Assembly: GCA_900104855.1 (NCBI GenBank)
Contig: FNSS01000001.1
Location: 2,666,001 to 2,730,000, forward strand
DNA: 64,000 nt
Direction of reading: 5' to 3'
From: Rhizobiales bacterium GAS188
GTDB lineage: Bacteria > Pseudomonadota > Alphaproteobacteria > Rhizobiales > Beijerinckiaceae
In this document: positions 43,934-45,461 of the stretch, one piece after another
Numbering within the stretch: position 1 is the stretch's first letter
How the letters are laid out: each line of letters begins with the position of its first letter
Translations under genes and position numbers: made by a program
Notes under the pieces: generated by a model
What the model was told of the DNA's origin: nothing
Database searches by the model: none
Seen by the model: the letters and a program-made list of their open reading frames with translations, nothing else

Positions 43934-44087
43934 CACCTCTCCCCTTGCGGGAGAGGTCGGCTTCGATGAGCGAAGCGAAGAGAGGCCGGGTGAGGGGGGC
44001 AGCGCCGACTCCCTCGCAGAGGCGCCTCTACCTTGGGGCTGGGGTGACCGCCCTGACCCGACTTCCGAAGGCAGGAGCTGCCCCCCT
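43934..44087. repeat. Family B REP pair, copy 4, left part (interrupted)
   Basis: Left unit CACCTCTCCCCTTGCGGGAG...GGGTGAGGGGGGC (43934-44004) and the start of the reversed right unit, ending CTGCCCCCCT at 44087, where the insertion sequence begins. The rest of the right unit resumes at 45405. Confidence 0.85.
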
Positions 44088-44099
44088 TGTGTCTTGAAA

Positions 44100-44273
44100 A
44101 TGTGCCAAAAAGGACTGGGCCGGCGCGGTAGGCCGCCGCGCCGGCCCTGGAGAGGAGAGCCCGTTACCCCCTTGGCTTAAGACCGTGGGTGAGCAAGGTG
44201 CCTTCTCTCCATCTTCACAAGCCCGAACAGTTGCACGGTCACGAAGGCCGAACCGCAAGGAAGGGATCGGAAG
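44100..44273 (+). ncRNA. Candidate bridge RNA of the IS110 element
   Basis: The 5' non-coding end of the element folds into a 12-base-pair hairpin (44117-44128 with 44136-44147), then a stem GGAGAG/CTCTCC (44149-44154 with 44205-44210) enclosing an internal loop. In that loop are CCCCCT (44167-44172), equal to the left target flank plus core, and GGGTGAG (44187-44193), complementary to core plus right flank. A following loop has CACAAG (44216-44221), complementary to core plus the element's left end, and ACAGTTGC (44227-44234), equal to the element's right end plus the first core base. This is the guide set of IS621-type bridge RNAs. Ends are not defined by sequence. Confidence 0.6.
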
Positions 44274-45215
44274 ATGGCACAGATGGTAACGAATGCCGGC
44301 ATCGATGTCAGCAAGCAATGGCTCGACGTCGCGCTTTGGCCGAAGCGTGACGAGGTCTCGCGGTTCAAGCGTGATGCTGCCGGTTTGGAAGAGCTCGCCT
44401 TCTGGCTCAGGGAGCGCCATGTGGTGCGGGTTGGCCTGGAGGCCTCGGGCGGGTATGAGCGCGAGGTCATCGACGCGCTGGAGGCGCAGGGCTTGGAGGT
44501 CGCGCTCCTCAACCCGCTGCAGGTGCGTCGCTTCGCCCAGGCCAAGGGCAGGCTTGCGAAGAACGATCGTGTGGACGCCCGCACGATTGCGCAGTTCACC
44601 GCGGTGATGATCGAGGCTCCCCAACCCGGCCGCCGGCGCGAACTGGACTCGTTGAGCGAGCACTTGACGTTCCGTCGTCAGCTGCGCGCTTGGATCGACG
44701 ACTGCACCAACCAGCTCGAGCACCTGCGCGATAAGGCGCTGCGCCGCACGGCCGAGGCGTTGCGGGTCAAGTTCCAACGCGCGCTCGCAGCCCATGACAA
44801 GGCCTTGGCCAAGCTCACTGCCGAGCATGCCGACTGGAACGTGCTCGCCAGGCGGCTGCGCACCGTGCCCGGCGTCGGCCCGGTGCTGTCGCAGACGCTG
44901 ATCGCGCTCCTGCCCGAGCTCGGCCACTTGTCGCGGCGCGCCATTGCCAGCCTGGTCGGTGTCGCTCCTTTCGACAATGACAGCGGCCAGCGCAGCGGCA
45001 AGCGCCACATCAAGGGTGGACGGGGGGCGGTGCGGGAGGTGCTCTATATGGCCGCCCTCTCGGCCAGGACCCACAATCCGATCATTGCCGAATTCGCCAA
45101 GCGGCTTGCCGGCAAGGAACCCAAGGTCATGCTCGTCGCCTGCATGCGCAAGCTCCTGGTCATCCTCAACGCCATGGTGCGCGATGGAATGGATTGGCAG
45201 GTCAAAACCGCATGA
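44274..45215 (+). CDS. IS110-family transposase (DEDD/serine recombinase)
   Basis: A 313-residue IS110 transposase. The N-terminal RuvC-like DEDD domain shows D11 ([14 protein letters not shown]), E56 ([10 protein letters not shown]) and D98/D101 (KNDRVDA); the C-terminal Tnp domain has [38 protein letters not shown] with the presumed nucleophile Ser 237, and [19 protein letters not shown] 44274 with AAGGAAGGGA upstream. All catalytic positions look intact, so the element may be active. It guides insertion with an element-encoded RNA in characterised relatives. Confidence 0.95.
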
Positions 45216-45404
45216 CCCCCGACCATCCCTTGGTTCGACCGGCGAGCGACCATCCCTTCGTCCCGACCTGCGCCTCCGAAGGCCAGCGCTCGCAGGGACG
45301 GTCAATGATGGCCGCAGGCCACCGCCGCAGGCGGCGCGAAGCGTCATTGACGGTCCCGAGACCGCTGGCCCAATGACATAATCGGGAGCCCAAAATCACA
45401 GTTG

Positions 45405-45461
45405 CTCACCCGGATCACTCGCTGCGCTCGTGTTCCGACCTCTCCCACAAGGGGAGAGGTG
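45405..45461. repeat. Family B REP pair, copy 4, right part (interrupted)
   Basis: Begins CTCACCCGGATCACTCGC directly after the insertion sequence and ends GGGGAGAGGTG at 45461, completing the right unit whose beginning lies at 44076-44087. Confidence 0.85.

Follow-up and report, generated by a model that had tools for sequence, protein, structure and literature searches.

A candidate REP-specific bridge RNA in an IS110-family insertion sequence of Rhizobiales bacterium GAS188

The 64,000-nucleotide stretch of Rhizobiales bacterium GAS188 analyzed here (the window) carries, at positions 44086 to 45406, what we read, with a probability of roughly 95%, as an insertion sequence of IS110 type that operates in the manner of IS621 and uses a bridge RNA with REP specificity. 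The element, a real and complete member of the IS110 family, has CT cores, encodes a DEDD/Ser transposase and carries a bridge RNA at its left end; there is good support for considering it a further example of the mechanism published for IS621. The element limits, the single target of its 12 copies, the covariation of guides, donor ends, handshake bases and stems, and the DEDD and Ser residues come from sequence comparison, and expression, the circle, the promoter and strand exchange are modeled on IS621. IS110 bridge RNAs, REP targets, handshake guides and junction promoters have already been published (PMC11208160, PMC11208158, PMC11187229, PMC1525189). The features identified, all on the plus strand, are as follows.

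44081 to 44085, left target half CCCCC in the REP (copy comparison)
44086 to 45406, whole IS110-family insertion sequence including both CT cores (same breakpoints in 12 copies; five unoccupied sites)
44086 to 44087, left CT core (copies and unoccupied sites)
45402 to 45404 joined to 44086 to 44088, candidate -35 box TTGCTT of the junction promoter, 17-nt spacer (by eye)
44106 to 44111, possible -10 box CAAAAA of the circle-junction promoter (by eye, weak consensus match, by analogy with IS621)
44117 to 44147, predicted 5' stem-loop of the bridge RNA (fold)
44148 to 44157, target-loop stem, 5' arm, partner 44202 to 44211 (arm pairing test)
44164 to 44172, left target guide TTACCCCCT, matching the target at 7/9 positions, with mismatches at positions 2 and 3 (covariation)
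44187 to 44193, right target guide GGGTGAG, 7/7 (covariation)
44194 to 44195, target-loop handshake bases CA, predicted to pair with donor positions 7 and 6 (G, T) (11-system comparison)
44202 to 44211, target-loop stem, 3' arm (arm pairing test)
44209 to 44216, donor-loop stem, 5' arm CCATCTTC, partner 44270 to 44277, with three bases in common with the target stem (arm pairing test)
44216 to 44221, CACAAG, the right donor guide proposed earlier, judged a chance match (no covariation here)
44227 to 44234, left donor guide ACAGTTGC (covariation)
44236 to 44250, donor-loop inner stem-loop CGGTC-ACGAA-GGCCG (fold, arm comparison)
44252 to 44259, right donor guide AC(C)GCAAG, with one base skipped and a single G-T pair (covariation)
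44260, donor-loop handshake base G, predicted to pair with target position 7 (C) (11-system comparison)
44270 to 44277, donor-loop stem, 3' arm GAAGATGG, covering the transposase ATG (arm pairing test, fold)
44274 to 45215, transposase, 313 aa, with D11, E56, D98, D101 and S237 (reading frame, profile matches, alignment)
45216 to 45404, right non-coding end of 189 nt containing a long hairpin (approximate arms 45295 to 45311 and 45342 to 45357; fold z -1.81)
45405 to 45406, right CT core (copies and unoccupied sites)
45407 to 45411, right target half CACCC in the REP (copy comparison)

The element is present in 12 full copies in its own genome (9.09 Mb, 3 contigs), all of which break at the same element bases, and the limits proposed in the initial annotation are thus exact. 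In every copy CCCC precedes the left CT and CACCCG follows the right CT, corresponding to one REP site, CCCC-CT-CACCC, in agreement with the REP specificity proposed for the element. The run of C ahead of the left core comprises five bases in nine copies, six in two (L006 and L009) and four in one (L012). At five unoccupied sites the matches to the left and right flanks overlap by exactly 2 bases, which fixes the core as CT; all 12 copies have this short core at both ends, together with a fixed target site. Matches common to the left and right element ends span just 7-17 bases, with E-values of 0.59 or worse. Relative to the window copy, the copies carry 0-6 differences, all outside the left non-coding end, and the expansion is therefore likely to be recent; the guides are identical in all 12, leaving within-genome covariation nothing to compare. 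The genome retains 145 intact CCCCCTCACCC sites (reversed control, 0) and 90 occurrences of GCTGCCCCCCTCACCCG (control, 0). An intact REP site in the opposite orientation lies at about 43988-43998, and the window copy occupies one arm of a REP pair.

The genome also contains a relic of a related element (positions 1501-1718 of locus L013; C1:5524014-5524231) with the same right end CACAGTTG and the same REP site; over 127 bases the right ends show 84% identity, and the differences in its hairpin arms, judged by eye, preserve pairing. Six copies of a second IS110-type element (L019-L023 and L025), scoring above the cut-off of NCBIfam NF033542, have about 50 bases after the stop codon in common with window positions 45221-45271 (94%), and the transposases of the two elements differ. 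Adjoining the window element, the minus strand at 45490-49854 holds a 1454-residue reading frame of short repeats, such as LTTTQIGALT.

The transposase matches the profiles PF01548 (DEDD_Tnp_IS110) and PF02371 (Transposase_20), both above their cut-offs, and scores above the cut-off of NCBIfam NF033542, described as 'IS110 family RNA-guided transposase'. A search of solved structures returned IS621 (8wt6, 2.2e-25) and ISCro4 (9t56, 2.9e-24) as the sole matches at an E-value of 0.1. IS110 enzymes are reported to combine a DEDD motif with a conserved Ser (PMC11208160), and D11, E56, D98, D101 and S237 are among the 37 residues invariant in 11 aligned transposases, the assignment of S237 as the counterpart of IS621 S241 having been judged by eye, with the phmmer alignment two residues off. 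Subterminal inverted repeats of the IS1111 type (11-13 bp, perfect or nearly so) were not found, the best match of the two ends being 8/12, and the covarying guides lie upstream of the gene, with no IS1111-type downstream guide RNA apparent in a scan by eye of the long downstream region. The IS1111 group was excluded because the subterminal inverted repeats are missing and the guide RNA is upstream. The nine Rfam matches, with E-values of up to 5, all fell under the gathering score.

Relatives were searched for at increasing phylogenetic distance. At the set thresholds, matches were obtained in 1 of 149 close genomes (its own), 22 of 397 at the level of the order, 6 of 385 at that of the class and 13 of 398 at that of the phylum; the lists overlap, and the larger searches cover a sample of each group and score just a few candidates in each genome. 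Outside the element's own genome, listed identities top out at 47%, and one scan of genome contigs yielded one relative, at 40%. In the plasmid collection 1,929 records matched; one of them fell at 60-80% identity and all others below that, with 41-50% identity among the 40 matches listed. Eleven relatives had at least three listed copies, those with one or two being left out; ten were usable by copy comparison, and G277 was excluded for lack of definable ends. The window element and these ten multi-copy relatives (39-47% protein identity) make up the 11 systems compared below, each system's target being represented by one copy. All 11 have a CT core, and their 11 targets are different. One IS110-type relative with left-end guides, G1093 (L104, L111, L114 and L118), sits before TGTTA, which resembles integron attC sites; the left flank of L104 differs (one of four copies). 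In G1098 (L113) the 5' stem-loop is nearly absent and the target loop starts about 20 nt past the core, unlike in the other systems.

Guide covariation was assessed in an unanchored test, which took, for every target or donor half, the highest-scoring match at any position of the left end and set it against the result for re-paired systems. Among 200,000 permutations of the 11 systems, nine were as good for the left target guide, none for the right target guide and four for the left donor guide, counts that are not strict probabilities, since the systems share ancestry and some share donor ends. With anchored positions, 0 (right target), 1 (left donor) and 0 (left target) of 500,000 permutations were as good. 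The left-target value comes from a rerun: in the first anchored run 178,300 of 500,000 permutations were as good (141,785 for the non-core bases), because the window row in alignment A1 was shifted by two columns relative to the others, and each row was then re-anchored on the xCCG motif, giving 0/500,000. These anchors were set with the guides already seen, and the unanchored 9 in 200,000 is therefore the safer figure. The left target guide needs a one-base shift in G298 and G898, its core T is mismatched in four systems and G1093 fits at 5/9. There are 154 places within 2 mismatches of TTACCCCCTCACCC, the first 100 listed all having 2 and none fewer. The guides fit target and donor and vary along with them from one relative to the next, and the outcome named beforehand as contrary to the proposal, unchanged guides in other targets, did not occur: the guides change with the targets. 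Taken together, target guides, donor guides and both stems track their own target, ends and partner arm in each system.

These data bear on the idea that the transposase itself recognizes REP hairpins and that the 5' region only regulates translation, as it was studied in ISPpu9 before bridge RNAs. Several insertion sequences are known to target REPs (PMC1525189), the fold of the ISPpu9 5' UTR lowers translation (PMC8450116), and the ATG of the window element is paired in the donor stem, all of which would fit; protein-only recognition nevertheless leaves unexplained both the 11 different targets and the way in which loop letters track each system's target and ends, making it extremely improbable. 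All four guide strings listed in the initial annotation are present at the positions assigned to them. When the left end was shuffled 50,000 times with its dinucleotides preserved, CCCCCT appeared in 6,400 of the shuffled sequences, GGGTGAG in 1,594, ACAGTTGC in 140 and CACAAG in 2,417; the first three occurred in the stated order in none, as did all four in any order. The claim that the four matches are hard to dismiss therefore holds for CCCCCT, GGGTGAG and ACAGTTGC, which are jointly beyond chance, but not for CACAAG, which by itself is a chance-level match (about 5%).

The initial annotation had taken CACAAG as the right donor guide, and of its four guides this is the one that did not stand, the two target guides and the left donor guide being backed by covariation in the 11 systems. 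In the donor loop of IS621 the left guide is followed by a stem-loop and the right guide (PMC11208158), and the right donor guide pairs discontinuously (PMC11208158, PMC11208160). In the window element, AC(C)GCAAG, on the 3' side, can pair along the full length of the seven donor bases CTTGTGT, provided that one C is skipped and one G-T pair is allowed. Guides on this side reach 7/7 in all 11 systems under lenient scoring, with a narrow score range (mean of 7 for own pairs, 6.31 for wrong pairings), and in the anchored test 12 of 500,000 permutations were as good. CACAAG would imply a loop order unlike that of IS621, with the right donor guide 5' of the left one. It matches the donor at 6/6 bases; its place, however, does not covary over the 11 systems (283,160 of 500,000 shuffles did as well), G298, G537 and G898, whose donor bases are likewise CTTGTGT, have no guide of this type, their best matches there being 2, 3 and 4 of 6, and position 44216, part of CACAAG, sits in the donor stem. 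We thus regard CACAAG as a very improbable guide and AC(C)GCAAG as the better one. For the reading of donor loops from one sequence, the lesson is that a six-base match on the wrong arm looked just as convincing as the true guide with its discontinuous pairing.

After strand exchange in IS621, donor position 7 has as its pairing partner the base following the right target guide, and target position 7 the base following the right donor guide (PMC11208158). The corresponding first handshake bases of the target and donor loops pair in 11/11 systems. G1093 has T in place of the C of the ten other systems, facing donor A instead of G, and G898 has C in place of the G of the ten others, facing target G instead of C, so that both exceptions are compensated by the partner base. 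The second handshake bases pair poorly (6/11 plus one wobble in the target loop and 3/11 in the donor loop, by hand count). Handshake covariation is thus also visible in a small set of 11 systems.

The fold of the left end agrees with this arrangement. The arms of the target stem prefer their own partners (in the 11 systems, none of 200,000 permutations did as well), and those of the donor stem show a weaker preference (273 of 200,000). GGAGAG/CTCTCC, noted earlier as a stem around the target pair, proved to be part of a 10-bp stem formed by 44148-44157 and 44202-44211. The range previously suggested for folding, 44088-44273, gives a z-score of -3.14 and omits the closing stem of the donor loop, CCATCTTC/GAAGATGG, whereas 44100-44285 gives -4.98. 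The left end thus shows a target and a donor loop on two stems with partner-specific arms, and the minimum-energy fold additionally closes the target loop inside. The initial proposal of an IS110 element with a bridge RNA in its 5' non-coding end is upheld.

By analogy with IS621, the element would leave as a circle, the joined ends of which would form a promoter driving the bridge RNA from the left end; promoter prediction found no plus-strand promoter in the integrated copy. The target loop (TTACCCCCT and GGGTGAG) would pair with both strands of the REP site around CT, and the donor loop (ACAGTTGC and AC(C)GCAAG) with both strands of the joined ends. The DEDD/Ser transposase would then recombine REP site and joined ends at CT, and after strand exchange the handshake bases at 44194 (C) and 44260 (G) would pair across.

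The donor loop also runs into the start of the transposase gene. GCAAGG (right donor guide and handshake base) leads directly into the Shine-Dalgarno-like AAGGAAGG, and the first in-frame ATG lies 9-20 nt past the right donor guide in 9/11 systems (G289 has none there; G898 has it at 47). The AUG has a mean unpaired probability of 0.00 in the window element, and of less than 0.5 in seven of the nine systems with the ATG at 9-20 nt, a value taken without a shuffled control. In ISPpu9, translation rose when a fold of the 5' UTR that likely hides the ribosome-binding site was weakened (PMC8450116); we infer that a fold of this kind corresponds to a bridge RNA's donor loop. It is conceivable, if rather doubtful, that the donor loop doubles as a translation switch, one transcript serving as guide RNA or transposase message, which would couple the supply of enzyme to that of guide; as the donor loop overlaps the start region of the transposase gene, such a link can be tested directly. 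A transposase ATG close behind the right donor guide in most systems, paired in the donor stem here, is perhaps mildly new: judged by titles and abstract openings, none of the papers listed on the subject linked IS110 bridge RNAs to a start codon or ribosome binding site, which is not proof of novelty, and 'start codon' is absent from the main text of PMC11208160. The right non-coding end measures 189 nt in the window element, 160 nt in G298, 147 nt in G537 and 10-25 nt in the other eight systems; in the window element the folding energy of this end does not stand out (12 of 200 shuffles did as well).

On the minus strand, a promoter-like site just inside the gene (44311-44283, CTGACA-17-TACCAT, 9/12; shuffle mean 0.1) and a terminator-like stem with a T run (44147-44117; shuffle mean 1.0) were observed. 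Together they would delimit an antisense transcript covering the bridge RNA, comparable to Asr9 of ISPpu9. The same region of the ten relatives offered nothing better than 40 of 300 plain shuffles, and an antisense promoter is therefore not a conserved feature.

As a resource, the element offers a bridge RNA with a defined REP target, 12 natural insertions and ten relatives with readable guides at less than 50% protein identity. Among known systems, IS621 of E. coli (PMC11208160, PMC11208158) shares the REP target, the CT core, a left-end bridge RNA with a 5' stem-loop and two loops, the guide order, a discontinuous right donor guide ending in CAAG, the handshake bases and a DEDD/Ser transposase. 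The window transposase is distant from that of IS621 (phmmer, 93 bits), however, REP sequence and guides differ, the right donor guide leaves out one base instead of two, the right non-coding end is long (189 nt), and the donor stem covers the transposase ATG, this last point being set beside IS621 from the side of the window element alone. ISPpu9, an IS110-family element of P. putida (PMC8450116), resembles it by description, not sequence, in having seven copies at one position in REPs, a long structured 5' UTR including the ribosome-binding site and, in some copies, a long downstream region; the paper concerns regulation, not guides, and reports an antisense RNA over the 5' UTR, where the window element has just a promoter-like site. 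The seekRNA of ISEc21 (IS110 type; PMC11187229), likewise compared by description, also derives from the non-coding region upstream of the transposase gene and has a different target. ISRm19 and ISRm22 of S. meliloti (PMC1525189), likened by description rather than by family or sequence, provide REP-specific insertion in an alphaproteobacterium, as found here.
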